From contig JACQPN010000011.1 of assembly GCA_016207515.1 (NCBI GenBank), positions 1 through 58,886 of the forward strand: 58,886 bases of DNA. The letters are read 5' to 3'. The stretch comes from Euryarchaeota archaeon (GTDB taxonomy: Archaea; Thermoplasmatota; SW-10-69-26; JACQPN01). Positions 1 to 19,854 of the stretch are shown here, in pieces. The notes under the pieces were generated by a model. That model searched no databases. It had not been told where the DNA came from and saw only the letters and a list, made by a program, of their open reading frames with translations. Every line of letters starts with the position of its first letter. Position 1 is the stretch's first letter. Made by a program: the position numbers and the translations under genes.

Positions 1-1
1 G

Positions 2-127
2 CGCAAGGGTGCGGAAGTCCGAGTGTATCTTCCCGGGAATCGGGAGAAGGTTTTCAAGGTCCGGCGGCGATACGGTCGCCGCCGGCCAGGGGGGTCGGTT
101 TTAGAGTTACAAGGCGGGTCGGATTAG
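2..127 (+). CDS. partial C-terminus of an unidentified basic protein
   Basis: An open frame enters from the left edge and stops at TAG 125-127, so only 41 codons are visible. The tail is strongly basic, with the run RRRYGRRRP around visible residues 22-30, which would suit a nucleic-acid-binding protein. No domain is recognisable. IS-like direct repeats overlap its end, so the C-terminus of a transposase or integrase is plausible but unproven. A 10-bp perfect inverted repeat lies inside it. Confidence 0.3.
   Translation, partial: RKGAEVRVYLPGNREKVFKVRRRYGRRRPGGSVLELQGGSD
61..85. repeat. perfect 10-bp hairpin
   Basis: Arms CCGGCGGCGA (61-70) and TCGCCGCCGG (76-85) are exact complements around a 5-nt loop. 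It lies inside the putative partial CDS, so it may be incidental to arginine codons or act as a terminator at the end of a mobile element. Confidence 0.5.
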
Positions 128-136
128 CGAGTTACA
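92..136. repeat. two imperfect direct repeats, IS-end-like
   Basis: Two about 20-nt units occur, at 92-111 and 116-136. Both begin GGGTCGG and end GAGTTACA, with a short variable A/T-rich core, and their starts are 24 nt apart. Multiple short terminal repeats of this sort are known at the ends of IS21-type elements. With only one end in view the assignment is an inference. Confidence 0.4.
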
Positions 137-358
137 CGACAACTTAAGATCTCACATGGTGCGTAAGGCGGCCACATGATAAAAGCCGCTTGCCGCATGT
201 GTCAGAGTTTCCATTTGAACGTGCAGGACCACGTCGGTGTCCTTAAGAGGCCTAGGGACGAAAGGTCTTCATTGCGTTACACGCCAGAGTCGGGTCGTGC
301 TTGGGGTGCAACTCCAATTGAAGGCATAGCGCGCGGCCGGCAATGTAACCAAAACGCC

Positions 359-369
359 CCGTATTTAAA
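359..369 (+). promoter_or_regulatory. TATA box of the cytoskeletal operon
   Basis: TATTTAAA at about 361-368 is a good archaeal TATA box. Transcription would begin near 390, leaving a leader of about 70 nt before the ATG at 463. An ATG at 391 opens only a five-codon frame (stop TGA 403-405). It is the only convincing promoter seen before the 463-11931 gene string. Confidence 0.5.
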
Positions 370-462
370 GCCCGTGGAAGCATATTTCACATGGACCGCG
401 TCTTGTGACGACGCGCTTGGCGGTCCCTCCACTCGCGGTCGGGCGGCGCCATCGGAGCTCTC

Positions 463-1467
463 ATGACCAACCCCTGCGGTCTGACTGAATGCCCAATTGA
501 GACAGACCTGTACCAGTTGGTCAAACGGGGCGAGCCTATTCCCGGAAGTATCGGGACCGGGATTCGCTCGGACCGCTTGGTGCCGTCGTGTTGCACCCAT
601 TGCGACCTGTGGCGCGGTGATTCGCGCATTCGGCGGCATTGCGCAGAATTCCATGTTCGAAGCCTTGCGGAACGAAACGACCCGCGGGGCCGCTTGCTTG
701 CCGATAAGCTCTATGAATTCCGGACATTACTTCGGTACCCGGAAAACCCTTCGGCCATGTGGCTAGCAAAAGTGTCGTTTCTCCTTCGCGATGTTCGAGA
801 TTTGATTTCGGCCTCGGCGGCCGATGCTTCAACCCTTGAACCGATTCTTGATCACTCGATGCGGGCGTTTACCGAGGCGCTGAGAGCCGATCCAGACAAC
901 CTTTTTGCGTTTGTGGGCCGCGACGGTCCGGGCCGCGTAACAGACACGGCGTGGGACGATTACATTTGCATTGTCCGCGACCGAGCGATTGTGGAAGGTG
1001 GATCATTGGAAGCACAGGGCGACTCGGCGATCGTGACGGCTCGTGATTCGAGAATCACACTGGAACGCGACGGCAACCCGGACCCGGGACCCAAAGGCGG
1101 TTATACGGGCATAGTTACGAGGAACGTTTTCCCTGGTTTTGTCGGCGCCATGGCTGAGACAATAAGCCCTGTGCTGATTCGCTTGAATTCCGTCAGCCCA
1201 AGTGTCTTTGCTTTTGGTCACATGCCGCTTTGGCTCTTACGATTGCTCGACCCTCGACCAGATGCGGCGGTTGCGACTGACCTAGAGAAGGCCCTAACCG
1301 ACGGCGATTTGCCGCCGCTGGTGACCGAACCCTTCATAATAGGACAAGAATATGAGGCCGACTGGCCCCGCGGAATCATCAACCGCGGGTTTGAGCGGGT
1401 TGCGGCGTCGGGGAAGGGACGAACCAGGCAGGTTCCCGGCGTCGGTTTGGTCCTGGTCATGGATTGA
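463..1467 (+). CDS. hypothetical protein, first gene of the ESCRT/tubulin operon
   Basis: A 334-residue protein that I do not recognise. A Cys/His-rich patch near residues 43-64 (CCTHC, then HC and H) could bind a metal. The middle is mostly helical and the C-terminal third mixed, without signal peptide or membrane span. The ATG follows a TATA box at about 361 and is the first usable start after it. The stop is 12 nt before the next gene, so it is probably co-transcribed with the ESCRT-like genes. The region before about 680 reads less convincingly as protein than the rest, so a later start is possible. Confidence 0.55.
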   Translation: MTNPCGLTECPIETDLYQLVKRGEPIPGSIGTGIRSDRLVPSCCTHCDLWRGDSRIRRHCAEFHVRSLAERNDPRGRLLADKLYEFRTLLRYPENPSAMWLAKVSFLLRDVRDLISASAADASTLEPILDHSMRAFTEALRADPDNLFAFVGRDGPGRVTDTAWDDYICIVRDRAIVEGGSLEAQGDSAIVTARDSRITLERDGNPDPGPKGGYTGIVTRNVFPGFVGAMAETISPVLIRLNSVSPSVFAFGHMPLWLLRLLDPRPDAAVATDLEKALTDGDLPPLVTEPFIIGQEYEADWPRGIINRGFERVAASGKGRTRQVPGVGLVLVMD

Positions 1468-1479
1468 GGGACGGTTAAC

Positions 1480-2115
1480 ATGGGAATATTTGAGGATTTG
1501 GGGCGGGCCTTCGGGGCATCTCGGGGACGCGATGATCCGGTCGCGAAATTGACCAGATTGAACGAGGGCGACCTGAAAGCTCTGCAGGCCCAACTTGACA
1601 CCGAGATTCCTGAGTTTTCGGTCGAGATCAAGTCAAAAAAGAGACGCCGAGACGAATTGGAAATCAAACTCAAAGCGACCACGGACCGTAACGACCACGC
1701 CATCATAGAGAGTGATTTGAAGGAGGCCAAGCAGGACATCGAACTACTCGGACGCGACCAAGATGCCCGGGTAAAAACCCGCGAGGTAACGAGATTCCTC
1801 CTAAAGGTGCGGAAAGGTCGGGGCACGCAAATCACCGATCTGGACAAGAAATTGGCCTCGATCATGAACATGAAGCCGGATCAGATTCAAACGGCGTTGG
1901 ACAAGCTTTCAGTGCAGAGCGGCATGGCGCTCGACAAGGTAAGCAACATCGGTCAAAGTATCGACGATTACGCGTCGCCGGCAGACCAAACGGTGGCAAC
2001 TCCGGAGGTCGGCGACATCCGACAGGACGAGGAGCGCACCGAGACGGATACTGCCGACAACGTCGAACTTGAAGAAGGGCCTAAGAAAAAGCGCGAAGTG
2101 TCTTTGGAGGAGTGA
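1480..2115 (+). CDS. coiled-coil protein with amphipathic N-terminus, possible divergent ESCRT-III-like subunit
   Basis: A 211-residue, mostly helical, highly charged protein. It opens with MGIFEDLGRAFG, a short amphipathic stretch like the membrane-inserting N-termini of ESCRT-III proteins. Long helices with heptad character follow (about 30-110), then a helical segment (about 115-165), then an acidic disordered tail ending in a basic patch and VSLEE. The order basic hairpin, then helices, then acidic tail matches ESCRT-III layout, but sequence similarity is weak, so an adaptor is equally possible. The next gene, a clearer Snf7-like protein, starts 6 nt after its stop. It is soluble and probably cytoplasmic, peripheral to the membrane. 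Confidence 0.7.
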   Translation: MGIFEDLGRAFGASRGRDDPVAKLTRLNEGDLKALQAQLDTEIPEFSVEIKSKKRRRDELEIKLKATTDRNDHAIIESDLKEAKQDIELLGRDQDARVKTREVTRFLLKVRKGRGTQITDLDKKLASIMNMKPDQIQTALDKLSVQSGMALDKVSNIGQSIDDYASPADQTVATPEVGDIRQDEERTETDTADNVELEEGPKKKREVSLEE

Positions 2116-2121
2116 TTCACA

Positions 2122-2709
2122 ATGGTAAATATCCCGTTCATTGGAAAGCGGTCGCTTGGCAAGAAGATTGAAGCTCTCGATGATTTGGAGGTCGATCTCA
2201 GGGTAGCGACCAATATCAGTGGAAAGCAAATCGAACGTGCTGAAGATGACATCCGAAAACTCGTCCGGAAGGGAATTGGCGCCAGCAAACAACAGCAGCG
2301 AATTCTAGCGGCGCAAGCCAAGGGGAAGGCGCAGAAGATTCGAATACTCCAAAGTAAACTTTTCCGCGATCTTGCGGTATATACGTTCGTCATCCAGGCC
2401 AAGGGATCGTACGAGGCAATGGAAATGAAGGACGAAGGGCCCTTGAAAAACCTTCAAAAAATCATGAAGGTCGCAACATTTCCCGAGCTTCAAAAAGTAG
2501 TCGCGCAATTGGCCAAGGAGGAGCAGAAGATTGACGTGAGCCTCCAGGCCATGCAACAGAAAATCGAGGAAATGCAGGAAGAGTATGCCTCGCCTGAATG
2601 GGGGGAGAACAGTTTCATGTCCATCATGGAATCTATGGAAGGCCTCCCGGAGGACCAGCGGGAAAAGACTATACAAGAAAAGATAAAATTCCCCGGAGAA
2701 CGCGCTTGA
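2122..2709 (+). CDS. ESCRT-III (Snf7/CdvB)-like protein
   Basis: A 195-residue helical protein. Residues about 39-70 (start IERAEDDIRKLVRKG) form the basic first half of a long hairpin. A Gln/Ala/Lys-rich second helix follows, then a segment GPLKNLQKIMKVATFPELQK leading into EEQKIDVSLQAMQQKIEEM. This matches the order seen in Snf7-family proteins: AE-x-IKKL-type helix 1, the return helix, then a KAM-type segment, an FP/LP-x-(I/L)QK turn and an acidic Met-rich helix. ESCRT-III proteins polymerise on membranes and are disassembled by Vps4. A Vps4-like ATPase is the next gene, 12 nt downstream, which strongly supports the call. No transmembrane span is present. Confidence 0.8.
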   Translation: MVNIPFIGKRSLGKKIEALDDLEVDLRVATNISGKQIERAEDDIRKLVRKGIGASKQQQRILAAQAKGKAQKIRILQSKLFRDLAVYTFVIQAKGSYEAMEMKDEGPLKNLQKIMKVATFPELQKVVAQLAKEEQKIDVSLQAMQQKIEEMQEEYASPEWGENSFMSIMESMEGLPEDQREKTIQEKIKFPGERA

Positions 2710-2721
2710 GCGAGGTCGCCA

Positions 2722-3936
2722 TTGACAGTAGGTGACGACATCGCGATTTCCATGCTGGACGATCGCCTTAGGACCGCCGTTAACAAGGGGAAGGAGACGG
2801 AGGCACGAGACCCGAAAGCGGCGGCTCCCCATTTCGAGGAGGCAGCGCGATGGGCGGATAAGATTGCGGGAATCGCGAAGGGGGACTCAAGGGTTCGAGC
2901 TATGGAGCAGGCAACCAAAATGCGCACTCATGCCGCGGACCTTCGGGAAGGGCGCGTGGCCTCCCCTCCAAAACCAAAAAAAACATCTGGTGAGGCGCCC
3001 AAGCACCAAGGCGCCAGGTCGGAACAACAAGAAAGTGACGACGATCCAGCTGCTCCATCCAAATTTCTGGAGAGGGCCGACACTACCTGGGACGACATCG
3101 TTGGCTTGACTGATGCAAAGAAACTCCTCAAGGGGGCGGTGCTCCTTGCCGTGGCAAAGCCACCGGTGGGCGTCAAACTGGACCCGCCTGCGGGAATTCT
3201 CCTTTATGGCCCCCCCGGCACCGGAAAAACGATGCTCGCCAAGGCCGCGTCAAACATGTTAGGGGCCTCATTCTTCAATCTCCCTGGCGGCGAAATCGAG
3301 AACAAGTGGTACGGAGAATCGTCAAAGATCGTTAAACGGGTCTTCGAAGAGGCTCGGGTCAAGAGTCCAAGCATAGTCTTCCTCGATGAGATTGACACTC
3401 TTGTCGGCAAGCGGGACGCGGGGTCGGAGCGAGACCCTTCCAAGTCCATCCTTGGCACCCTTCTTACGGAGATGGAGGGCGCGACAACGAGCAAGGGCAA
3501 AAATCCACCAATGGTGCTGGTTCTCGCCGGCACCAACCAACCGATGAACCTTGATCCGGCGTTTCTCACGCGGTTCAATCGTCGCGTCATGATTCCTCTT
3601 CCCGACGAGAACGCCAGATCGGCGATCCTTGCAAAACAAATAACGGCGCGCGGGTTGTCGTTGGAGGTTCCGTTGGAGTCGATTGTGGCCAGGACGGAAG
3701 GCTACTCAGGCCGTGAACTCCGAAACCTTGCGCAAGAAATGATCCGGTTAATGGTGGAAGAGTGCAACACCGACCTTTACGAACGTGTCGGAAAGGAAAA
3801 CCTCGCCGAGTCGTCCTACAAGGTCGGCCCGATAACACATGCGCATGTTGAGAGAGCGCTGCACGATGTGCGTGCGGTCACGAGCCACGAGGCGATTGTT
3901 CGGTTGGAGGAGTGGGCCCGTGGCGGAATTTCGTGA
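2722..3936 (+). CDS. Vps4/CdvC-like AAA ATPase with MIT-like N-terminus
   Basis: A 404-residue AAA ATPase starting at TTG 2722 behind a GAGGT ribosome site. Residues 1-77 are a three-helix, Ala/Lys-rich segment of MIT-domain size, and 78-118 a Pro/charged linker. The AAA core follows from WDDIVGL (about 123): Walker A GPPGTGKT (163-170), pore segment around KWYGES (195-200), Walker B IVFLDEID (218-225), sensor 1 LAGTN (268-272) and paired arginine fingers in TRFNRR (283-288) followed by IPLPD. These are meiotic-clade (Vps4/katanin/spastin) features. Vps4 remodels ESCRT-III polymers, and the gene directly follows an ESCRT-III-like gene. The tail lacks an obvious Vps4 beta domain, so CdvC-like is the safer comparison. 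Confidence 0.9.
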   Translation: MTVGDDIAISMLDDRLRTAVNKGKETEARDPKAAAPHFEEAARWADKIAGIAKGDSRVRAMEQATKMRTHAADLREGRVASPPKPKKTSGEAPKHQGARSEQQESDDDPAAPSKFLERADTTWDDIVGLTDAKKLLKGAVLLAVAKPPVGVKLDPPAGILLYGPPGTGKTMLAKAASNMLGASFFNLPGGEIENKWYGESSKIVKRVFEEARVKSPSIVFLDEIDTLVGKRDAGSERDPSKSILGTLLTEMEGATTSKGKNPPMVLVLAGTNQPMNLDPAFLTRFNRRVMIPLPDENARSAILAKQITARGLSLEVPLESIVARTEGYSGRELRNLAQEMIRLMVEECNTDLYERVGKENLAESSYKVGPITHAHVERALHDVRAVTSHEAIVRLEEWARGGIS

Positions 3937-4303
3937 TTGTTATCGCGAGGTCGTGGAGAGCTTGGCCGCGTGGCGCAAGGGTAAGAAACTCCCCGACAGG
4001 GACTTGATCATGGACGCCTACATTCAGCAGGAATTCAGGCGCCGGAAACTCCAGGTGCGCCGCGCGGCACTGATGCGGAAAACCGAAGGCGCGGGGCCCG
4101 AGATGGACGCATGGCAGCGAAATCTCGAAATCGTGAATAGGGAGTTGACTGATGTGGAAGCAAAGGTTTCCTGGCTGCATTCCGTGAGAAGCACGCCCGA
4201 CGAAATCGACGCCTTGGTGGTTGAGAAAGCAAAATCGGCGTTGAAGCAACTTAAAATAAAAGGACAGTTGTCAAGAAACGAGTTAGGGGACACGGGCGTC
4301 TGA
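3920..4303 (+). CDS. small helical coiled-coil protein of unknown function
   Basis: A 127-residue, Arg/Lys/Glu-rich, almost all-helical protein without membrane spans. The best start is GTG 3920, placed 8-10 nt after GGAGG inside the end of the AAA gene, which gives a 17-nt overlap and so translational coupling. An in-frame ATG at 3839 lies deep in the AAA gene and has no such site. It sits between the Vps4-like and the first tubulin-like gene, so a regulator or adaptor linking the two modules is reasonable. I do not recognise the family. Confidence 0.7.
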   Translation: MAEFRDCYREVVESLAAWRKGKKLPDRDLIMDAYIQQEFRRRKLQVRRAALMRKTEGAGPEMDAWQRNLEIVNRELTDVEAKVSWLHSVRSTPDEIDALVVEKAKSALKQLKIKGQLSRNELGDTGV

Positions 4304-4325
4304 TGCATGGGGAGGTTGTCGTTCA

Positions 4326-5507
4326 GTGACTCTGGTCATTGGAGTGGGCCAAGCAGGATCAAACCTCGCGGCGGAAATGACGCGCGTCACCAACGCCAAG
4401 GATTTCCTTAGTGTCTATCTCGTGAACAGCACAACAAGGGATCTGGTAACGGTCCGTGACGTTCCTCGATCGCGTTGGATCGGGGTCAGCGACACTGAAG
4501 GGTTGGTGTCACTCGCCAAGGGCGAGGACGCGGTTGAAAGCAAGTTGATCAAAGGTCTCGGAAAGGACCCTCGACGTGGCTTCACGACGCTAACCTCCGT
4601 CTTTGACAAAGTGGTCAACTATGTTGAAACACTCGGCATCAAGGATGAACGCTTTGCGGTAATTACTTTCTCGGGCGGCGGCGGAACCGGAGCCGGCGTC
4701 GCGCCCGTCCTCGCTCGTGCAATTCGCGAGGTGACGGAAGGAAAATGCCGTGTCATTGGTGTTCTGATCCTTCCTGCCATGACCCGCGGCGACGTTTCTG
4801 ACGACGGCTCCCTTGGGGAAGCATGGAACGCGTGGTACTCGTTCGAGCGCAGCCTCGACATTTTTGATGGAATCATTCTCGTCGACAATAATCGCCTCAG
4901 CCACATGGGCGACGTCGAGCGAGGGTTTCCGCGATTCAACAAATATGTGGCGCATTGCCTCACCGACATGATCCTGGGGAATCTCACTGAACTCGTGCTA
5001 CCGGGCGAGGACGAACTTATCATCCAACAATCCGATGTTCAGGATTTGGCAACGGCTCTCTCTGTAGGCGATCGCGGTGAACGAAAGCCAGGGGTCGCCG
5101 CAATTGGTCGGGCCGTGCAATTATTGCGAGGTCCAATGGGTTACATCGCTCCAATCCTTCCACCCAAGCAACCTGACCTCGTGAGCCTGAGCTTCTTGGC
5201 GAAGGAACGAATGACGTTTGAAGATGCGGAAACAATCGATTGTGAAAAGGCGTATGTCCTAGTCCGGGCCCCATTATCGATTCTGGGTCGGGCTGGTACT
5301 GGTCAGGATGTGTCCGAGGTACTCAGTCTCGCGGCCAAGAGTTCTGCGAGAGGCGACGTGATTTATGGAACCGCCTTGACCCGAAGGCCCTTGGCTTCCG
5401 TGACTTTGGGTCTCACGTTCCTACCGTCCGAGATCCCTCGCCTTAAGGAGCTGGAAACGGCCGCTTCAGAGTACGAGAGGCGATCAGGAGGAAAGGCACC
5501 TGACTGA
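4326..5507 (+). CDS. tubulin/FtsZ-superfamily GTPase 1
   Basis: 393 residues from GTG 4326 behind GGGGAGG. Residues 4-13 (VIGVGQAGSN) are the first strand and T1 loop, 115-124 (FSGGGGTGAG) the T4 nucleotide-binding signature, 183-190 (IILVDNNR) the T6 region, and 236-241 (SDVQDL) the T7 synergy loop, where both acidic positions of the FtsZ NxDxxD motif are kept (D237, D240). These show a GTP-binding, self-assembling GTPase. The rest diverges from canonical FtsZ and CetZ, so it belongs to a side family. It lies between the ESCRT-like module and membrane-protein genes, and is paired with a second, different superfamily member at 8868-10106. Confidence 0.9.
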   Translation: MTLVIGVGQAGSNLAAEMTRVTNAKDFLSVYLVNSTTRDLVTVRDVPRSRWIGVSDTEGLVSLAKGEDAVESKLIKGLGKDPRRGFTTLTSVFDKVVNYVETLGIKDERFAVITFSGGGGTGAGVAPVLARAIREVTEGKCRVIGVLILPAMTRGDVSDDGSLGEAWNAWYSFERSLDIFDGIILVDNNRLSHMGDVERGFPRFNKYVAHCLTDMILGNLTELVLPGEDELIIQQSDVQDLATALSVGDRGERKPGVAAIGRAVQLLRGPMGYIAPILPPKQPDLVSLSFLAKERMTFEDAETIDCEKAYVLVRAPLSILGRAGTGQDVSEVLSLAAKSSARGDVIYGTALTRRPLASVTLGLTFLPSEIPRLKELETAASEYERRSGGKAPD

Positions 5508-5523
5508 GCCATTCGCTGATTGG

Positions 5524-5634
5524 ATGGTGGCTGTCGCATCGCCGATGCAATGGGTTTTCCTACTTGCGTTAGGGCTCGGATTGGGACTCGTCCTGGGGGC
5601 CATCGGAGGCCTTCTTCTTGGTGGTTCCGAATGA
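5524..5634 (+). CDS. micro single-span membrane protein
   Basis: A 36-residue open frame from ATG 5524, made almost entirely of one hydrophobic helix (WVFLLALGLGLGLVLGAIGG) with Gly at regular spacing, ending GGSE. Its stop overlaps the next start as ATGA (5631-5634), so it is coupled to the large membrane protein after it. A strong AGGAGG at 5486-5491 lies too far from ATG 5524 but fits a CTG at 5500, which would add eight residues (LTEPFADW). A Gly-rich helix suggests helix packing with another membrane subunit. No function can be assigned. Confidence 0.55.
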   Translation: MVAVASPMQWVFLLALGLGLGLVLGAIGGLLLGGSE

Positions 5635-7469
5635 GGTTTCCAGGAATCGGCCCAGTAGTTGCAGCGATCCTAATTGGGCTGTTCGTGCAAACCCTGCCAG
5701 GAGTCGGCGCCCGCCAATTGGATTCGGCGCCAACCTCGTGTGGCAACCCCTCCATTATTGTTTTCTCGGGCGATGACCGACCGGATTTGCACGTGTTCTT
5801 CGAGTGGACCGTGGTAATGAACGATTCAGGCCCACTTCGAGGCACATTGTATGCAAATGTTTCTTTGCCGAATGGTTCCAAGCTAACTTCGAATATTTCT
5901 GTCGAAGCGCCCACCAACATTACAATTACCACGGCGGCCGCGCGAGACTCGCAGGGTGCACCAAGAAAAGTCTATTTCGAAGCCACCGATGACTTGGCTC
6001 ACCAAACGTTTTTGCTCAATCGCACGATTGATTGCGCAGCGGGGCTCGTGAGCGGCGAGACAACCCCCGCGCTTTCCGTGAGAATAATTTTTCCTAAGTA
6101 TTTCTTAGCTCCCATGGGAACGCCGTCGTGTTCGGACCGGCCGCTGGATTCGGGAAATGAAACAGAGCTTTGCGTCCGGCCCGTTTTGGATGGCGACGGT
6201 AGGATTGGCGCGGGAACCGCGATTGAGGCCCTTCTCGTTGGAAGCCCACTAAACCAATCGTGGATTGAAGACGCAACTTTGAAGGCGCTCCTTAACAGTG
6301 CAATTTACCCCGCGACCGCCACTCTTTCATACTCGAACCTTGGGAACCCAAACGTCGCGACGGGTGATCTGTTGGGCGCGCCAAGCCTTGAATTCAGCAT
6401 ATCCAACTCCCACGACGTAAAACAAATACAAGGTCTTCTCGTTGAATTGAAGAATCTTCGAGCCCGGCTTCAGGAGTTGGACGCTCTCGCTCGAGACGTC
6501 GGCGATCACGGGCCCGGCGCGACCTGGGCTGAGATAAATGAAACGTATGGCAGGGCATCGCTAGCGTTCGACGATTTGAACCACACGTTGAGTGTGATCG
6601 AGGCTCCGCTATTCGATTATTTGCTGGACGTTAAGAACCGAATGTTGGAAAACGGTTCCATCCTTGTTCGCGGAGGTGCCGTCCTAACCCCAAGCAGTGG
6701 GTGCGCCCCGGGGCCCCTAAGAATTGACGCTGGCGTTGATCTTTGTGTAACAATTGCAGAAATCTCGTATTCGGTTCCGCTCCTTGAAAAAAGAAGTGAT
6801 CTCTTGGTCGGCGAACCGGGCGCGTGGAGCACCGTGTCGGCATGGGATGGGTGGCCACACGGAGAAATCGTTCAAGGCACTAAGATTCTCCTGGGGACAC
6901 CTCTCCTCGACATGTCGCCTTTCGCCAATATTTCCCAACCGCTGCCCGTTGGACAACGGGTGAGCCACGCCCAGACAATCCAACTCATGACCGCCATGAA
7001 GGATCTGCACCAATCATGGAATCAGATTCGCCAAACCCGCCAAGGGCAGGAGATTCCCACCGTGGTTGTGACGTACCGCGAGTTTGAATCGAAGCGTATC
7101 GAGGCAAGAAAATTGGGCGACGCGGCCCTTGAGAATCTGCCGGCGCGGGAAGCGTTCTTTGAAACGGTTGAATCCGAAGCCAAAACCGCCGCGCTAGCCG
7201 CGGCGGGGCCGTCCCTTACGATGCCGCGCCTGCTCAGCGGTCTTGCGGTACTCGGCGGTCTCGCGGCAGGCGCGGTCCTGAGTTTCGTTGTCGTCCGCGG
7301 TCAAGCCGAGCATGGGTCAAAGAAGGGGCTGTTCACCAGCAGGGGCACCAGCGCAGCGAACCCTCTTGCCGGGTTGTTGGGGCTCGTTGGACTTGGGCTC
7401 GCGGGCGTGGCGTTCGCACTTGGTTACGCCGTCCGAGGCCTGGTATTCGTTTGGAGTGGGTTACCTTGA
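5631..7469 (+). CDS. secreted ectodomain protein with two C-terminal membrane spans
   Basis: 612 residues. The start is ATG 5631, which overlaps the upstream stop (ATGA) and opens directly into a signal peptide (about residues 1-27). A long extracellular part follows with several N-x-S/T sequons and a helical hairpin near residues 262-330. Two hydrophobic spans close the protein (about 533-552 and 575-600). It would present a large outer domain with its C-terminus anchored. The next gene starts inside its stop codon. No known family is recognised. Its place between two tubulin-like genes suggests a membrane partner of the filament system. Confidence 0.8.
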   Translation: MRFPGIGPVVAAILIGLFVQTLPGVGARQLDSAPTSCGNPSIIVFSGDDRPDLHVFFEWTVVMNDSGPLRGTLYANVSLPNGSKLTSNISVEAPTNITITTAAARDSQGAPRKVYFEATDDLAHQTFLLNRTIDCAAGLVSGETTPALSVRIIFPKYFLAPMGTPSCSDRPLDSGNETELCVRPVLDGDGRIGAGTAIEALLVGSPLNQSWIEDATLKALLNSAIYPATATLSYSNLGNPNVATGDLLGAPSLEFSISNSHDVKQIQGLLVELKNLRARLQELDALARDVGDHGPGATWAEINETYGRASLAFDDLNHTLSVIEAPLFDYLLDVKNRMLENGSILVRGGAVLTPSSGCAPGPLRIDAGVDLCVTIAEISYSVPLLEKRSDLLVGEPGAWSTVSAWDGWPHGEIVQGTKILLGTPLLDMSPFANISQPLPVGQRVSHAQTIQLMTAMKDLHQSWNQIRQTRQGQEIPTVVVTYREFESKRIEARKLGDAALENLPAREAFFETVESEAKTAALAAAGPSLTMPRLLSGLAVLGGLAAGAVLSFVVVRGQAEHGSKKGLFTSRGTSAANPLAGLLGLVGLGLAGVAFALGYAVRGLVFVWSGLP

Positions 7470-8875
7470 GCAAGGCATTGAACAACGCCGTCCTTGTCGG
7501 CTCCGTCTTGGCGTCAGTTGGGTTAGTAGGGGCGGGCGCGGCCATCGGAAGCACGCTCCTCGTTCTGGGCGGCGTCGTGGGGGTGCCGGTGTTGCTGGTG
7601 GGGGCCGCCGCAATCCATTATTTGAATGCCTCCCAGCGGGCCGGGGGCCTTGGCCAGGCTCAAGAGCGCCACTTTTCCGCGAAGTGCAAGGACTGGTCTC
7701 ACCGTTTGGATAAGGCCATGGCGCTGGCCAAGAGGGCGGGCGTGCCATCCGCTGACCTGGAGTTTCTGGTGGAGAGGGGAAAAGCCACGTTTGCGCCCCA
7801 CGCTATTCTTGGCGTGGATGAGAACGGCGCCAGTCTGTCAAAGACTTCAGCGCTTCCACGCGGACCCTGGATCCATCGGACGGACGCGGCATTGGATATT
7901 TTGTTGGAGGAGGCCGGAGAGGTCGCCGCTGCGGCGTTGAACGAGCGACTTCGCGACCTTGGAAACCGCATGCCGCCGGAGATTCCGCGTTTTGGGTCCC
8001 TGCCCCGGGGAGACTTGACCACCGTCTGCCAGGCATATCTGACAGAGTTCGAAAAGTCGGCGATCCACGTTCGAGGATTGATGCAAGGCGTTGAAAAAGA
8101 CATTGCCGACGCCGAAGCCGAGGGACATGATGTCGCGGATGCATGGAGTTCATTCAGGACCGCGAAGAAACTGTGGGACGAAGCGCAACCAGTGCTCGCG
8201 CTCAGATCCCTTGACGAAGCCAGGAAACACGTGACTGACAAAGTAGGTCCAGAGTTCGAGACCCGACGTCTCCAGCTTGCCTCCGCCCTGAGGCAAGTGG
8301 GAAGCATTGATTTGAAGGGTGTTGCAACGGGAACCGTAAACCTTGGCCTGGAACGCCTTGTCCGTGATGTGGACGCGGTCACGCTGGAGAGGGGAGGTTA
8401 TGCCTCGCTGGAAAAATCTGAACGAAGGCTCGCGGAAGTCTTGCAGGAATTAATGGAGGAGTCTCTAAACAAGGCGCGTCGTGCGCGGGACACCATCATA
8501 GAGTCCCGTGCACTTGGCGAGATTGAAGACCTAGACGGAAAGATCCAGATTCTGGAGACCGCCCCAAAGGTTACGCATCCGTACCAGGAATCGTTTCCTG
8601 GCTGGGTCGAGGCGGCACGTCAAGCCCTTCCTGCGATACAATACTATACCGACCGGGCCGCCTTGGCAAAGGCGTTGCCAAGCCTGTTTAAGGTCATTGA
8701 AGCAAAGCTAAAAACAAATGGAGCGGTGACGGCCGCGGACGTTCCGGTGCGCGACAGGGAAAAGGGCGCGGAGATTCTTGGTTTCTACGCGCAACAGCAC
8801 CCGAAGTCCGTGGTCATTGATGAAATGGGCAATCTAATAAAACTGAAGAAAACGGGGGGCGACGTCCCTGCCTGA
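7466..8875 (+). CDS. membrane-anchored helical protein (two N-terminal spans, long cytoplasmic coil)
   Basis: 469 residues from TTG 7466, which overlaps the previous stop (TTGA) and has GGAG nine nt upstream. Two hydrophobic segments (about residues 7-28 and 33-52) form a hairpin, and the remaining 410 residues are charged and helical, expected in the cytoplasm. The layout suits an anchor that ties cytoplasmic filaments to the membrane, and the second tubulin-like gene follows with a short overlap. That role is inferred from topology and context; no family is recognised. Confidence 0.75.
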   Translation: MSKALNNAVLVGSVLASVGLVGAGAAIGSTLLVLGGVVGVPVLLVGAAAIHYLNASQRAGGLGQAQERHFSAKCKDWSHRLDKAMALAKRAGVPSADLEFLVERGKATFAPHAILGVDENGASLSKTSALPRGPWIHRTDAALDILLEEAGEVAAAALNERLRDLGNRMPPEIPRFGSLPRGDLTTVCQAYLTEFEKSAIHVRGLMQGVEKDIADAEAEGHDVADAWSSFRTAKKLWDEAQPVLALRSLDEARKHVTDKVGPEFETRRLQLASALRQVGSIDLKGVATGTVNLGLERLVRDVDAVTLERGGYASLEKSERRLAEVLQELMEESLNKARRARDTIIESRALGEIEDLDGKIQILETAPKVTHPYQESFPGWVEAARQALPAIQYYTDRAALAKALPSLFKVIEAKLKTNGAVTAADVPVRDREKGAEILGFYAQQHPKSVVIDEMGNLIKLKKTGGDVPA

Positions 8876-10106
8876 AGCCGGCCGAAAGAAGAAAACCCTC
8901 TGGAGCATCGTGGGAGCCGGCGAGGCCGGTTGTCGCGTCGCCAGTCAATATTTTGCAACACATCCTAATCCGGCCGTCGGCGATCGCGTACTGTTGTTGA
9001 ACAGTGCAGAATCCGACATAAGTACACTTCACGAAGTTCTCGAAGCCGACTTGCGAGGTGAGCAAGGCAAGGAACGCTTGGACATTGTAATGCGTCAATC
9101 ACACCCCTTTGGTGACGCCTCGGGGACAGGAAACAATCCGCTAAAAGGCGAACAGTACTTGGACGAGGGCTGGGATGAGGTTTCGCGTTTCATCGAAGGA
9201 AGTTTGGGAGGGAGTGCGGATGTCATGGTACACGTCCTTGGGGTCGGCGGTGGCACAGGATGTGGAAGCGTACCACCTATGATCTACAAACTTCGCCACG
9301 GCCAAGCAAAGGCCGTCTCGAAGGACGTTTACCAATTCGCGATGGCGATGTGGCCCGCGAAGTACGAAGGCGAGCAGCGGCTCACCAATGCGGCTCTTGG
9401 GCTGTCAAGGTTGTTGCGGTTTGGACCTCGGGACGAACTTAACGCCAATTTTGTTTTGCTTCTCGGAAACCACGAACTTGAGGCCCTGGCCCGGAAGAAG
9501 GACATCCAACGCGGTGGGAATTTCCGTGAAATGAACAAGATTGCCGTTGAAACGTTGAACGCGCTAATCAGTCCAGGGCAGAAATCTTCCGAGATCATCG
9601 ACGCGAGTGATTACGCCCGCGAGTCCGTCTTCCATGAGATTCTTCATTTTACTGCCGGCGTTGCTTGGGAAGTCCCGTCAATCATAAACCTGGATCAGGG
9701 GATCAACGAAGCGCTCGAATCGATGCTTCTCCCAATCGATCCGAAGACGAGCCTCGCCGCCTACTTGATCGTGCAGGTGCCCCCTGACGAATATGATGCG
9801 CCGGAATTCAGTTCTGCCGAGGTTGGTAGCACCTTCGAGGCGTGGCTATCGACAAATGGATTCGACATCCCCGTACGGTACAACAGCGTGGTTCCGAATC
9901 CCTCGCTACGCGGAACATACCATGTGATCCTGGTTCTTGGAGGGTTCAACCTCGAGCCCCTCATCAAACCGGTCGAGCCGCTGATGAAGAAAGAGATCCG
10001 CCGCCTTAAGAAGGCCTTTAGGTCGGACGACGACACATCTACCCGCTACGAAAAGATTTGGAAAAACCTTCTCGAGTATTCGGAGGCGAGCAATGCGAAG
10101 AAATAG
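8868..10106 (+). CDS. tubulin/FtsZ-superfamily protein 2, probable CTG start
   Basis: 412 residues if read from CTG 8868. The T1 region is LWSIVGAGEAGCRVA and the T4 signature GVGGGTGCGS is at about 125-134. T7 is IINLDQGI near 272-279, where the first Asp of NxDxxD is kept but the second position is Ile. The only ordinary start, GTG 8910, would remove the first beta strand before the T1 loop, and an in-frame stop at 8844 leaves no other ATG, GTG or TTG. A G-rich site at 8854-8859 is well placed for CTG 8868. The lost T7 acid suggests a subunit that binds GTP but does not stimulate hydrolysis by its neighbour. Confidence 0.85.
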   Translation: MPEAGRKKKTLWSIVGAGEAGCRVASQYFATHPNPAVGDRVLLLNSAESDISTLHEVLEADLRGEQGKERLDIVMRQSHPFGDASGTGNNPLKGEQYLDEGWDEVSRFIEGSLGGSADVMVHVLGVGGGTGCGSVPPMIYKLRHGQAKAVSKDVYQFAMAMWPAKYEGEQRLTNAALGLSRLLRFGPRDELNANFVLLLGNHELEALARKKDIQRGGNFREMNKIAVETLNALISPGQKSSEIIDASDYARESVFHEILHFTAGVAWEVPSIINLDQGINEALESMLLPIDPKTSLAAYLIVQVPPDEYDAPEFSSAEVGSTFEAWLSTNGFDIPVRYNSVVPNPSLRGTYHVILVLGGFNLEPLIKPVEPLMKKEIRRLKKAFRSDDDTSTRYEKIWKNLLEYSEASNAKK

Positions 10107-11931
10107 GCACATTTCGTTCGTTATTGTCGTTCTGATAGTTTCGCCCCTCTGGATTGCCACGCCAATAAGTGCGGAGGAAACATGCCATGAGTTGAAGACG
10201 ACCTCAGCCCCAGCAACGCAGCCGCAAAAAACTGGAACGTGGCAGGAATGCAATCACGAATCGGGCCCGGGCGGGCGATTGAAAGTCGAGTGGGTGGATG
10301 GATTCGTTCCAATGAGGATCACCCTCGTCTCTTTGGACGGTCAAGTTCAGCTTACCCAACGGGTAGAACCTAATCTCACAGTTGCGTCAATTTCTTGGGA
10401 AGCCGTCAACGAGAAATTCCACCTTGAGGCGGAGAAGGCACGCAGCGCAAATGCGTCCAGGTTTGACGTCAGAATCCGCGTAGAGACGACCACGCCCGAA
10501 ATCGTTGGATTCCTACACTTGCGAACCGACTGGGTCCTTGCTCCAAATGTTGCTCTCGACCCGTTAGGCCAAGCAGTCGCTTGGTTTGAAAAACAATTCG
10601 GTCAGAATTGGGTCGTCGTAATCCTGGTTGCCGCCGCAATTGCGGTTGCATTAGGCGTACTTTTGTCTAAAAAATCACACAATGACCCGGTGGAACGACT
10701 TGGCTCCGGAAACGCTTCACATGGAGCGGCTCCTGCCTCCGAACGAACCGCCCCGAAAGTTGCAACCATCGCCGAGCAGGACCGGGCACCAGTGGTTCCG
10801 ACCGGACTTTCCGATTCCCCAGAATGGCACCAAGTGCACGTTGAGTTGGACCCGCCTACGAACAATCAGAGGCACGCAGAAGCCCTGCGCGGATTGAACA
10901 TTTTCTTTGATGATCGCAAACTGTCTAGAAGCCCAGAAGGCATATTCCAATTGACGGTGCCCGGCGACGGCACGTTTGCAAGGCTTGCTCGAGATGAATC
11001 GCTCGACGAGCGCTTCCAGACGGACAGCCAAGCGTTTGAGATTGGTAGAGCGAGGGTAGAGGACGGGGCCTTCTTTCTCACCCTGGTTCCACAGAAGCAC
11101 GCATTCGTTCTTTTGGCCCACGAACAGGGGACGTCCCGGCCCCTTGCGGATCTCAATTTCCGGATCCAGCCTGCCTATGGACAGAGCGTTACCAAATCGA
11201 CCGGTCGCGACGGAACGGCTGGGTTCCAGGCTACCGAAGGACACGTCTCCATCTCGTTGGTTGAGACTGGCGCGCTGCACATGGCCCCGGTTGAGATGGA
11301 GCTCGAATCGCCCAAGAACCAAATCATTGTAGTGGAAATCGGCATCAAGGCCAGCGGCATCAGGGCGCCCGCAGCGATCGAGATTCGGCCGCCGGCGAGC
11401 CTAGGCGGCAAACCGCTTTTGGCACAAGTAAGCACAATTGCGCTCCAGACTTATGCAGGGGCGTGGCACGATCTTTGGAACCGACCTGATTTCCATACGG
11501 GGAAATCGCCGGCGTCTACATCGACCCTGCCGAAGGATGTAAATGACGCAATTGAGGATATGTGCGACGCGATTGACGAACTCTTCCGGGAAAAGCAGGT
11601 GCAAGCACATCTCGCCGGCCCGATGAATGCGGCGTGGGCGCGGCCCTTCGCCTGGGCCCGGAATCCACTTCCCAATGAAATGCGCGAAGACGTCGCATTA
11701 GCCGAAGTCGAAGCGTTGCGCGCTTCCGTAGATGCTCGCTTGACACAACAAGCCAAGTCGCTTGTGATTCGTCCCGGGATTCGTCTCTTGAGCCTAAGCG
11801 ATCATTTGATTCGCCGCGTCAGGGAGGAACAGAAGGGATTACCTTTTGTTCTTGCGGCGGATCTCGTCCTGCGAATCACGGACTTATTCTTGACGGACCC
11901 GACCCTGGCAAAGGAATGGTCTAAAGGTTAG
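10093..11931 (+). CDS. receptor-like protein: signal peptide, short ectodomain, one span, large cytoplasmic part
   Basis: 612 residues from ATG 10093, overlapping tubulin 2 by 14 nt. There is a signal peptide (1-27), a Cys-containing ectodomain (about 28-170), a single span (about 173-191), a Pro/Ser/Ala linker and a cytoplasmic region that starts with beta-rich, carboxypeptidase-regulatory or Ig-like segments (about 250-440) and ends helical. This topology would carry a signal or force across the membrane to the tubulin-like proteins. It is the last gene of the operon, and its TAG overlaps the stop of the opposing operon. The family is not recognised. Confidence 0.75.
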   Translation: MRRNRHISFVIVVLIVSPLWIATPISAEETCHELKTTSAPATQPQKTGTWQECNHESGPGGRLKVEWVDGFVPMRITLVSLDGQVQLTQRVEPNLTVASISWEAVNEKFHLEAEKARSANASRFDVRIRVETTTPEIVGFLHLRTDWVLAPNVALDPLGQAVAWFEKQFGQNWVVVILVAAAIAVALGVLLSKKSHNDPVERLGSGNASHGAAPASERTAPKVATIAEQDRAPVVPTGLSDSPEWHQVHVELDPPTNNQRHAEALRGLNIFFDDRKLSRSPEGIFQLTVPGDGTFARLARDESLDERFQTDSQAFEIGRARVEDGAFFLTLVPQKHAFVLLAHEQGTSRPLADLNFRIQPAYGQSVTKSTGRDGTAGFQATEGHVSISLVETGALHMAPVEMELESPKNQIIVVEIGIKASGIRAPAAIEIRPPASLGGKPLLAQVSTIALQTYAGAWHDLWNRPDFHTGKSPASTSTLPKDVNDAIEDMCDAIDELFREKQVQAHLAGPMNAAWARPFAWARNPLPNEMREDVALAEVEALRASVDARLTQQAKSLVIRPGIRLLSLSDHLIRRVREEQKGLPFVLAADLVLRITDLFLTDPTLAKEWSKG

Positions 11932-14285: not shown

Positions 14286-15196
14286 AGATAGACGCCTCCG
14301 TTTGCGATCTCCACTTCCCGCACGTCGCGCTCTAACGCACGCAGCGGCAACCTAATAAGCCAAGCAAGCGACGCCGCCGCACTTGCCATGACGCCCGCGG
14401 CTTCGAGTACGGCCAGGGTTGCCCTTGATTGAGATACTCGCAGGCTCGCGCTTGCGTCATCGATGAGGCTGACACGCGCCTGGTCCCCGTGTGATTCCAT
14501 CAGGTTTCGATCGATATTCAGGGCCTGAGCGATTTCTTGCGTTTCGCCAAGGTAGAAGATCATGGCGACTGGGTCCAAAAGCCCGTCGCTGGTTTCCCTT
14601 GAACGTTCGAGATCTCTCGCGACCCTACCCGCGTCTGTTGACCACGCACTTTCTTCGGCGTCGAGCCACAATGTGATACGCGCCTCCCCGCCGGCCCGCC
14701 CAACGACATGATATAAGTCTCTGACTTCCCGCAAGATCGCGATTCTTGGAAGCGTTGCTTGGGTGTCCAGGGCTTTGGCTTCGAGAGCCTTCCCCACCGT
14801 GCCTGCGGACGCGAAAATCGTGGGTTGGGCCAGCCTCCCTGCGCCGCCCTCCAGCCGGACGGATTGGTTCATTGCCAGCGAAAGTCGGTCTGCGGCTTGG
14901 TGAGGATCTGACGTGTCTGACGAGATGACCAATTCCAGAAAATTACAGGTCTCGCGTAAGTCTGGCACCGCCTCAAGTTGCAATCGTGGAATTACGTTCG
15001 CCCAGAAGGTTTCAAGCGATCGTTCAGGATAGGATCGGACGCGGTCCCTCTGTCCCACCCACCACTCGAGCGCCTGCGTGGAGTCCGCGCAATCCGGTTC
15101 CGGCGCCTGCGCGCGGCTGGGAGAAACCCCGAAAAGGATGATCAGAAACGCCGCAGCGATCCAGACCCTGCGACCCGATCTTCGACGCGTGGTCAT
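14282..15196 (-). CDS. secreted helical protein with C-terminal membrane span
   Basis: 304 residues with a twin-Arg-rich N-terminus and signal peptide (about 1-29), a mainly helical ectodomain and a hydrophobic segment at about 262-285 followed by a charged tail. It overlaps both neighbours by 4 nt: the kinase gene upstream and the large surface protein downstream. No family is recognised. Similar topology to its downstream neighbour suggests that the two form a complex outside the membrane. Confidence 0.7.
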   Translation of the reverse strand: MTTRRRSGRRVWIAAAFLIILFGVSPSRAQAPEPDCADSTQALEWWVGQRDRVRSYPERSLETFWANVIPRLQLEAVPDLRETCNFLELVISSDTSDPHQAADRLSLAMNQSVRLEGGAGRLAQPTIFASAGTVGKALEAKALDTQATLPRIAILREVRDLYHVVGRAGGEARITLWLDAEESAWSTDAGRVARDLERSRETSDGLLDPVAMIFYLGETQEIAQALNIDRNLMESHGDQARVSLIDDASASLRVSQSRATLAVLEAAGVMASAAASLAWLIRLPLRALERDVREVEIANGGVYL

Positions 15197-17259
15197 GCCC
15201 CGATTCCCCTGTCATCGCGTTGTTCTTCGGCTTGCATCGACTCAAGAGAGATGTGGATTTCGTTTGAGTAGGCGTCGCTTTCGGTCCAGACGCTTTCCGT
15301 GATATTCAGGGCCATGAGCTTGGTTTCAAGCTGAGAAAGCGCAGCCCGTAGCTCGTCGACCGTTGGACGTTTCGACGGATCGGCGTGAAGGCACGACTGG
15401 ATGACAGCGCGCGCCGGTTCAGGCAAGAGTTCTATCTTGGGCGACAATTCGCCCCGTCGAATGAGATCCCGAAGGGCGCTTGGCCGCATTCCGCCGGGCT
15501 TTCCATCGTAGGGGTATTGCCCGGTCAGAAGTTCATGAAGCATAACTCCGACACTGTAGACGTCACTTTTCGGAGTGATGTCCGTTTCGCCGCGTGCTTG
15601 TTCGGGGGACATGTAGAGCAATGTCCCAAGCGGAGAGCCGCCCCGCACGGCGGTTGATTCCTCGATCAATTGTGGCACGTGGGCCAGGCCGAAATCGGTG
15701 ACTTTGACGTTTCCGTCGGCGTCCAAGAGGATGTTTTCTGGTTTTAGATCTCGGTGAACACCACCTGGGAAATGTTTCTGAAACGCGACGAGGACGTCTA
15801 CAACCTTAGAGACGATCCTTACGGCTTTGACGGGGTCGGGTCCCTTCGGAGTCCCGACGGTCCACTCTCTGATCTTGTCACGTAACGATCCACCACTCAC
15901 ATAATCCATGACTTTGAACGGTCTTCCCCCGACTTCCTTGAATCGCAAGATTGCCGGCACCCCCTCATGCTGGAACCGAGCCTCGGCAACTCCTTCCCGT
16001 TTGAACGCCTGTCGAACCGAAGCCGATCCCAGCCATTTGTCGTGAAGTGTCTTTATCACAACACGTCGATCCAGGTTGTCGATTGCCAGAAACGTCCGGC
16101 CGAATCCGCCGGCCTTCAACTCCTTTTCGACTTTCTTGATGTCAAAGACTTCCAGCACGTCGTCGCCCAAACTGAGGGCCGAGGTCGGTGTTCTTGTTGA
16201 AGTAGACGTGGAGGAAATCTCGGTGAAGCGCTTGGTCAAATCTTCAATGCGCTGCACTAATTCAAACCTCTTTGTCACTTCGCAAAGGGTTCTAAGGGCC
16301 ACAATCCTCGTCAGGATCTTATGGTCCTGTCCCGGGACCACCAGAGATGATTCCGGGTTTTGGAACGCGAGTCTTTGAACATCCCGCTCCAGCTGCGTAA
16401 GTTCCAACGAAAGCATATCTGGCCCCTCCTTGCGTGTTTGAATGAGCCGCGCGGCCTGGATGTATTGATTTCCACGACGGTGCATATCTGGGTCGCGCTC
16501 GGCGTCGATGATAGACAGCGCGTGCCTCGCGTACTCCTCGGCCCGCGTGGCGGCCTGGCGGGCGGCGCCGCGTTGAGCCTTCATTGCGAACTCAGCCGCC
16601 GATAGGCTTTTCGCGGCGCGCGTCAGAAACTCTCCCCCGATTCTTGCCCGAAACGTCAACAGAATATTCCTTGCTTCGACGGCCTGTGGATGGGTGGAAC
16701 GCGACGCAGCCTCCAAGGTCTTGAGTATTTCGCCCACTTCGGCCACTAGCGTATCCATATCGCGTGTCGGATTGTCAATCAGGGCGTACGCCTTCTTCAT
16801 GGTTTCAATGGGGTCTTTGAACACGGTGGTCGCTTGCAACGGACTCGTTGGGTTTCGTTTGGGTTGAAGGATTTCACCGGGGTTCGACGTGCCCAACGCG
16901 ACTGCGCTCCACCCGGCGACCGCAGCCAATGCCGTGATTGCGCCGAACGCGTCTTGCACTGCTTGCCGGACGTCCCGGTCGACTACCTTGCCCGGTAGTG
17001 TCGCGGCAATGGACAAACCGACGAGAAGAATTGCGACGCCCAAGATCCCCGCGATTGGTCCCCACTTCCACCCCTTGCGCCCCGCGTATTTTGCGACAAG
17101 GCCTGCACCGAATCCGCTTCCGCCAAAAAGCAAGAGCGGAATCGCGGGGATCGCGTCCGTTCCGTACGCCGAAAAAAGAATTCCGGCGAGCAAACTCCCG
17201 ATAAGGGCCCCTCCAACCGCACCGAAGCCGGACAGAAGGAGTCCCGTGTTTGGTTTCAA
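15193..17259 (-). CDS. membrane Hanks-type Ser/Thr protein kinase
   Basis: 688 residues from TTG 17259 behind GGAGG. Residues 5-125 hold about four hydrophobic spans and 150-350 a helical, TPR/MIT-like region. The kinase domain follows: glycine-rich loop KAGGFGRTF (382-390), VVIK with catalytic Lys at about 403, HRDLKPEN (502-509), DFG (522-524), GTLLYMSPEQ (545-554) and a SDVYSVGVML helix. All catalytic residues are present, so it should be an active kinase with its catalytic part in the cytoplasm. It heads an operon with two secreted anchored proteins and faces the ESCRT/tubulin operon, whose cytoplasmic proteins are candidate substrates by context. Confidence 0.93.
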   Translation of the reverse strand: MKPNTGLLLSGFGAVGGALIGSLLAGILFSAYGTDAIPAIPLLLFGGSGFGAGLVAKYAGRKGWKWGPIAGILGVAILLVGLSIAATLPGKVVDRDVRQAVQDAFGAITALAAVAGWSAVALGTSNPGEILQPKRNPTSPLQATTVFKDPIETMKKAYALIDNPTRDMDTLVAEVGEILKTLEAASRSTHPQAVEARNILLTFRARIGGEFLTRAAKSLSAAEFAMKAQRGAARQAATRAEEYARHALSIIDAERDPDMHRRGNQYIQAARLIQTRKEGPDMLSLELTQLERDVQRLAFQNPESSLVVPGQDHKILTRIVALRTLCEVTKRFELVQRIEDLTKRFTEISSTSTSTRTPTSALSLGDDVLEVFDIKKVEKELKAGGFGRTFLAIDNLDRRVVIKTLHDKWLGSASVRQAFKREGVAEARFQHEGVPAILRFKEVGGRPFKVMDYVSGGSLRDKIREWTVGTPKGPDPVKAVRIVSKVVDVLVAFQKHFPGGVHRDLKPENILLDADGNVKVTDFGLAHVPQLIEESTAVRGGSPLGTLLYMSPEQARGETDITPKSDVYSVGVMLHELLTGQYPYDGKPGGMRPSALRDLIRRGELSPKIELLPEPARAVIQSCLHADPSKRPTVDELRAALSQLETKLMALNITESVWTESDAYSNEIHISLESMQAEEQRDDRGIGA

Positions 17260-17430
17260 GCCTCCACTGACCCCGTGCCTAGCTGGATGGGCACCTCGTA
17301 CATTAATCCTACGGTCAAAAGGGCGTCCTACTCATCGGCAAGATCTAGGGATTTCCGCAGACTCTGTTCTTGGACCGCGACTCCGGGATTCAATCCGCAC
17401 GAGCCATCACCGCTAAGTAGCCCGCGCCGA

Positions 17431-18648: not shown

Positions 18649-18679
18649 GGGTCGATGAAGATGCCTACGGTCGCCAAAG

Positions 18680-18692
18680 GAGGATTTATTAT
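18680..18692 (+). promoter_or_regulatory. TATA box for the solute-binding lipoprotein gene
   Basis: An A/T core TTTATTAT at about 18685-18692, preceded by purine-rich AAAGGAGG (BRE-like), lies about 35 nt before the ATG at 18725. A short GCTGAAGCGCAGC inverted repeat sits between box and start. Confidence 0.45.
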
Positions 18693-18724
18693 CCCCGTAC
18701 TGCGCTGAAGCGCAGCTGATCAAT

Positions 18725-19831: not shown

Positions 19832-19854
19832 ACGCAAAGGCGCCCGGGCGCATT

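Follow-up and report, generated by a model that had tools for sequence, protein, structure and literature searches.

In eukaryotic cytokinesis two filament systems meet, with ESCRT-III completing the cut on a bridge packed with microtubules. A small helical protein encoded near one end of a contig from a Euryarchaeota archaeon, followed by an ATPase and close to tubulin-like genes, raises the question of whether the two systems also keep company in this corner of the Archaea. A preliminary description of the locus took the protein for Snf7-like and its owner for a probable euryarchaeote; the latter fits a member of the Thermoplasmatota, to judge from the Thermoplasmata-type pair of Vps4 and ESCRT-III carried by relatives at the level of the phylum. 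Here we analyse the whole contig (JACQPN010000011.1, 58,886 nucleotides; hereafter the window), and argue, with a probability of roughly two in three, that the 195-aa protein is a subunit of ESCRT-III, of the kind found in euryarchaea rather than in TACK or Asgard archaea, working within a tubulin-coupled membrane-remodelling module.

The reading frame for this protein opens with ATG and has exactly the boundaries first described, and no support was obtained for the opposite-strand reading frames that overlap it. It encodes the second of two small helical proteins directly 5' of an AAA ATPase gene (Table 1). Same-strand neighbours abut it, the ATPase gene, as had been claimed, following at once (12 bases past the stop codon), and its relatives adjoin Vps4-like ATPases in other lineages. 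An AlphaFold2 model made from the one sequence, with a low-confidence mean pLDDT of 61, places helices at residues 9-51, 56-102, 107-117, 121-155, 158-172 and 177-187, the first two forming a predicted hairpin around a 4-residue turn. A hairpin of alpha1 and alpha2 followed by a short alpha3, alpha4 and alpha5 is the layout of ESCRT-III, and the low-confidence model reproduces it. The other features on which the first reading was founded are present as well: the FP-x-LQK turn reads FPELQK (residues 119-124), and the helix at 121-155 after it is rich in Met, Gln and Glu with a net charge of -4. Over the whole protein, charge is divided between a basic N-terminal core (net +11 over alpha1-3) and an acidic C-terminal part (-7 over alpha4-5), while the C-terminal tail, EKTIQEKIKF, resembles a MIM1 motif by eye only.

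Table 1. Genes of the ESCRT-like module and the tubulin cassette, with the basis of each assignment (positions in the window)
Feature	Position	Strand	Basis
334-aa protein, Cys/His-rich N-terminus, first operon gene	463..1467	+	position; neither family nor relative found
Second ESCRT-III-like small helical protein, 211 aa, short N-terminal amphipathic helix	1480..2115	+	profile, AF2 hairpin layout
ESCRT-III-like protein, 195 aa	2122..2709	+	AF2 helices, Foldseek ranks 1-8, hhalign profile match
Vps4-type AAA ATPase, 404 aa, MIT-like helical N-terminus	2722..3936	+	Pfam AAA 5.2e-36; AAA tree
127-aa helical protein, GTG start, overlaps ATPase end	3920..4303	+	position; no family match
TubB, tubulin/FtsZ-like GTPase, GGGTG loop, invariant D..D of T7 loop	4326..5507	+	Pfam Tubulin 1.6e-13
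36-aa hydrophobic peptide ORF	5524..5634	+	read from sequence; positional counterpart of haloarchaeal small membrane protein after TubB (cf. L050 17152-17439)
Secreted/membrane protein, signal-like N-terminus, C-terminal TM helices	5631..7469	+	hydropathy; position = cassette group 9, sequence match not significant
Membrane-anchored coiled-coil protein of cassette	7451..8875	+	group 2 profile (37 relatives) E 1e-19
TubC, second tubulin-like GTPase	8871..10106	+	Pfam Tubulin 9e-7; blastp
Cassette membrane protein, 612 aa	10093..11931	+	position; C-terminus of group 1 protein matched weakly, E 0.001
Secreted/TM protein of cassette, 785 aa	11928..14285	-	group 3 profile (30 relatives) E 5.7e-17
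Membrane protein, 304 aa	14282..15196	-	group 4 by position (adjoins group 3 as in other loci); weak sequence match E 0.04
Membrane-anchored Ser/Thr protein kinase	15193..17259	-	Pfam Pkinase 1.1e-35; four hydrophobic segments

The ATPase has a single AAA domain and carries Walker A and B motifs, a KWYGE pore loop and an arginine region reading RFNR. Pfam searches of it gave no match to MIT or to Vps4_C, the latter being present in related ATPases of Thermococcus (L122, 7.7e-9) and Thermoplasmatales (L014, 7.2e-5). Residues 1-95 show similarity (p 2e-4 to 4e-4) to the MIT domain of one Thermoplasmata Vps4, a domain that Pfam recognises at 30.7 bits, and the N-terminus also resembles those of relatives (p 5e-4 to 2e-3); its PDB matches to cytochrome b562 were judged helical-bundle noise. 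A plasmid search with the ATPase gave access to sequence relatives, in loci of Thermococcus peptonophilus, Halarchaeum, Halomicrobium and a bacterium, Candidatus Chlorohelix allophototropha. All four place one or more helical proteins of ~190-225 aa beside a Vps4-like ATPase, and Ser/Thr kinase genes occur in each locus except that of Halomicrobium. In a tree of AAA domains the window ATPase falls in a clade (100/98) with the ATPases of these four loci and the F2 family of Thermoplasmatales, separate from Cdc48 and from the VAT-type ATPases of haloarchaea. The 211-aa protein matches the gene 5' of the related ATPase in Thermoplasmatales and, against the profile of relatives described below, yields an hhalign E of 2.1e-4 at 17.3 bits, a score that one plain shuffle of 2,000 equals; it appears to belong to the same set of small proteins as its 195-aa neighbour. 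The two small genes and the ATPase gene are thus most likely an ESCRT-III/Vps4 module like those that Makarova et al. 2024 (PMC10936438) describe from euryarchaea.

The relatives' loci hold observations of their own. Plasmid NZ_CP128401.1 of Candidatus Chlorohelix allophototropha, a member of the Chloroflexota, carries two ESCRT-III-like small genes with a Vps4-like ATPase (L124 1-4655, L125) that matches the Thermococcus one at 38% (E 1e-67), and four kinase genes surround the module. Makarova et al. 2024 (PMC10936438) state that no ESCRT components are identified in bacteria, so an ESCRT module of archaeal type may have been transferred to this plasmid. In Thermoplasmatales (L014-L017), Vps4-like ATPases of two kinds (F2, F5) occur with several small helical proteins, where the Thermoplasmata system of the literature is minimal and poorer. 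A strong Snf7 match of 62.9 bits beside odd genes (L018, G314:C59), in a genome of 3% contamination, was set aside as a probable eukaryotic contaminant.

Downstream of the module, the tubulin-like neighbours reported at the outset are confirmed by Pfam Tubulin matches (at 4326 and ~8871-8910) and by haloarchaeal relatives. TubB shares 35% identity over 97% with haloarchaeal plasmid genes, and TubC shares 32% (blastp E 1.4e-56) with a haloarchaeal gene of L051, which lies in the same clusters as the relatives of TubB. The GGGTG nucleotide loop is invariant in both, as is the acidic pair of the T7 loop (D237/D240 in TubB, D231/D234 in TubC), so that both GTPases look catalytically able. The true start of TubC lies 5' of the GTG listed at 8910, the profile match beginning at 8892. 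Its alignment passes 8910, the first ATG, GTG or TTG, and the open stretch there (window 8850-8912) offers no standard start codon, so TubC likely begins with a CTG (8871) or another start. Among the surrounding genes, those at 7451 and 11928 are assigned to the cassette by profile, and those at 5631, 10093 and 14282 by position. A genome-wide scan for TubC recovers 57 archaeal loci (L057-L113), mostly among uncharacterised genes, which span Methanosarcinales/ANME-2, Methanoperedens, Halobacteria, Hydrothermarchaeota, Pyrohabitans, Altarchaeum and others. A recurrent order among them is TubB, coiled-coil TM protein and TubC, with a secreted protein and a partner encoded on the other strand. 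An origin from viruses found no support, a single viral contig (L120, IMGVR_UViG_3300012202_000039) holding a distant TubC relative at 23%.

Even with the ESCRT-III identity correct, module and cassette could be two independent systems that share an island by chance. The ESCRT loci of Thermoplasmatales, Thermococcus and Chlorohelix are devoid of tubulins, many tubulin cassettes have no AAA genes nearby, and many TubC loci hold no ESCRT-like gene within 10 kb. Set against this are the contiguity of the plus-strand genes, which between 463 and 11931 either overlap or leave short gaps, and the recurrence of the arrangement: the cassette also lies next to AAA and coiled-coil or helical genes in a Methanomicrobia MAG (L087) and in haloarchaea, where the adjoining AAA operon corresponds to the ESCRT-like system that Makarova et al. 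2024 call Halo_adaptin. A chance meeting is, on this balance, a reading to be kept in mind but somewhat unlikely.

The 195-aa protein could, alternatively, be a coiled-coil adaptor of a generic sort, serving the AAA ATPase or the tubulin filament and resembling ESCRT-III only in the layout of its helices. Pfam, NCBIfam and PADLOC make no ESCRT-III assignment for it, Pfam Snf7 does not match it, its best Pfam matches are OmpH and other coiled-coil families (E of at least 7e-4), and its PDB sequence-profile matches are mostly keratin and kinesin coiled coils, with CdvB (E 0.029) the best from an ESCRT protein; the low confidence of the model points the same way. The missing Snf7 match does not exclude ESCRT-III, as accepted archaeal members also fall under the Pfam cut-off: in the same search Sulfolobus acidocaldarius responds only beneath the curated threshold, and one ESCRT-III of Thermoplasmatales (L015 10582-11157) reaches 19.3 bits against the required 27.3. 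Compared by Foldseek with 350,542 PDB chains, moreover, the model finds ESCRT-III at all of ranks 1-8 (CHMP1B/IST1 at E 0.015-0.072 and CHMP2A/CHMP3 at E 0.21-0.30), with no E below 0.001 and low TM-scores of 0.26-0.40 among these eight. The same procedure applied to the 211-aa neighbour, also a coiled coil, gives a mixed list in which MukB/SMC coiled coils come first and CHMP2A and CdvB2 also appear, which argues that the ESCRT-III list of the 195-aa protein is not what any coiled coil would produce.

Comparison by profile leads to the same family by a longer road. Direct searches with the 195-aa protein gave no clear relative in plasmids, in viral contigs or in 380 genomes from the phylum, and profile comparison with the Thermoplasmata ESCRT-III set alone was negative. 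A profile of six small helical proteins from Vps4-like loci and four Thermoplasmatales proteins (family F1) matches it over 148 columns and residues 18-175 (hhalign probability 82, E 1.1e-5, this and other pairwise profile E-values being those of a single comparison). With hmmsearch the score is 22.0 bits, the best of 4,000 shuffles of the protein, half of which keep its heptad classes, reaching 14.2. The six-protein profile without F1 meets the Thermoplasmata ESCRT-III set at E 1.1e-3, and a further small protein of the Thermococcus locus (L122 6663-7229) matches Pfam Snf7 at 4.2e-4 and, when a small set was searched, its own paralogue at 4e-7. Such steps, each of them remote, link the 195-aa protein to the Snf7 proteins. 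The profile search against ESCRT-III families proposed in the preliminary description gives no match with Pfam Snf7 or with the Thermoplasmata set; the match obtained is to the proteins of Vps4 loci. Survival of the match through heptad-class-keeping shuffles, together with the ESCRT-III-specific structural list and the repeated pairing with Vps4-type ATPases in other lineages, makes a generic adaptor improbable.

A closer relation has also to be weighed, namely that the protein is of the PspA/Vipp1 type and not ESCRT-III proper. The two belong to one superfamily, Vipp1 stands next below the top eight Foldseek chains (then come CdvB, CdvB2, Snf7, CHMP3, an Asgard ESCRT-III and PspA), and Makarova et al. 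2024 (PMC10936438) report that Halo_adaptin loci encode a PspA-like protein 5' of the AAA gene. Yet Vipp1 and PspA, at ranks 9 and lower, come behind the CHMP chains, an ATPase with an MIT-like N-terminus adjoins the gene, and the haloarchaeal helical proteins found 5' of the AAA gene (L054 4738, L055 12590) were rejected as relatives, having no similarity to the 195-aa protein. To our knowledge, PspA systems have no MIT-type ATPase, and we consider this assignment very unlikely. The ESCRT-III identity first proposed is supported by structural matches ahead of PspA/Vipp1, remote profile homology, the adjoining Vps4-type ATPase and the tubulin-like neighbours, and it falls short in the direct match to Pfam Snf7.

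Composition sets this part of the window apart. GC content is 56.6% over bases 1-19840 (third-position GC near 0.6) and 63.0% over bases 19841-56000 (near 0.78), and tetranucleotide usage shifts at ~19.84 kb, where GC changes. TubC occurs in one of 380 sampled genomes of the phylum, the source genome itself, and TubB in one of seven genomes of the class. Deviant composition and the rarity of TubC in the phylum indicate that the 1-19.8 kb block was probably gained by horizontal transfer as an island, and the hope that the gene might inform the distribution of these systems in early archaea is not borne out. That the block is an assembly or binning artefact foreign to the genome, as its GC, its tetranucleotide shift and its place at a contig end might suggest, is very unlikely, for beyond 20 kb the contig holds an order-typical gene (5/5 genomes) and housekeeping genes, and the 2.67 Mb genome is 98.4% complete and 1.8% contaminated; a chimeric join keeps a small probability. 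A second low-GC stretch occupies 56-58.9 kb. At the inner edge of the first (17275-19831) lie genes for a membrane protein with a double zinc ribbon and for a lipoprotein that binds solutes (SBP_bac_3); a solute-binding protein, ProX, is likewise part of the Meth_adaptin system.

ESCRT-III genes were at first described as sparsely noted outside the TACK and Asgard archaea, a statement overtaken by Makarova et al. 2024 (PMC10936438), who describe several euryarchaeal clades, one of them with a CetZ-like gene. With the 'Main' clade, to which by our own reading of its kinase, Vps4 and phosphatase genes the Thermococcus peptonophilus plasmid locus (L122) belongs, the window shares the ATPase clade, profile-matched small proteins and a nearby membrane Ser/Thr kinase; L122 differs in lacking tubulin genes, and its protein phosphatase was not found in the window. 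With Halo_adaptin of haloarchaea (Halobaculum and Halobacterium plasmid loci, L050-L056) it shares homologous TubB, TubC, coiled-coil TM and secreted proteins in conserved order, and a nearby AAA ATPase with helical genes. The Halo_adaptin ATPase, however, has a VAT-type N-domain in place of the MIT-like one and lies elsewhere in the AAA tree, and the PQQ/IG and winged-helix genes and a third tubulin, TubA, are lacking in the window, which holds no group 6 protein (the PQQ/IG adaptin-like feature). Makarova et al. link Halo_adaptin to one CetZ-like protein, whereas the loci examined here carry three tubulin-family genes (L050, L051, L053, L074 and L077, including Halobacterium salinarum pHS2), TubA with its Cys/His-rich N-terminus accompanying TubB and TubC. 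In the two-ATPase clusters of Thermoplasmatales (L014-L017) families F1, F3 and F2 resemble the 211-aa protein, the 195-aa protein and the ATPase, respectively; these clusters lack tubulins, a further ESCRT-III (F4) follows, and 3/4 have the second ATPase (F5). The CHMP1B/IST1 and CdvB filaments supply the best structural matches and, in CdvB, the best ESCRT sequence match in the PDB; identity to the 195-aa protein is 16-18%, and the window differs in having neither CdvA nor a wH domain. Euryarchaeal ESCRT-III/Vps4 systems and one CetZ link have thus been described already; new are the union of an ESCRT-III/Vps4 module whose ATPase is MIT-like with a two-tubulin cassette, and the breadth of that cassette.

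If the 195-aa protein is ESCRT-III, it and the 211-aa protein would form or co-form membrane-bound filaments, which the Vps4-type ATPase would remodel or disassemble through its MIT-like N-terminus. TubB and TubC would build a cytoplasmic filament, with the coiled-coil and TM proteins as its membrane anchors, the membrane-bound Ser/Thr kinase may act as the switch controlling the cassette, and gene order suggests that the ESCRT-III filament is coupled to the tubulin-family one. Two canonical FtsZ genes lie elsewhere in the genome (157.7 and 156.4 bits), so division is an unlikely role for the module. The likeliest is local membrane remodelling of another kind, perhaps vesicle or protein sorting or the making of a surface structure; Makarova et al. 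2024 (PMC10936438) likewise argue for a non-division role of the complex ESCRT systems in euryarchaea. It is possible, and we put it forward tentatively, that all this forms one machine, its pair of tubulin-like GTPases positioning or tensioning an ESCRT-III filament that Vps4 remodels, and that the cassette has come together with AAA/ESCRT modules on more than one occasion (with VAT-type ones in haloarchaea and Methanomicrobia, with an MIT-like one in the window), in an ancient non-division partnership of two archaeal cytoskeletons.

The two-tubulin membrane cassette is widespread in archaea, and the literature found describes just the CetZ-like gene of one haloarchaeal system. A compact archaeal cluster with both filament systems, a motor, a kinase and membrane proteins would allow a test of whether the two work jointly outside the Asgard archaea, and for what purpose. 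The combination of ESCRT and tubulin genes suggests that two kinds of cell skeleton cooperate in reshaping membranes.
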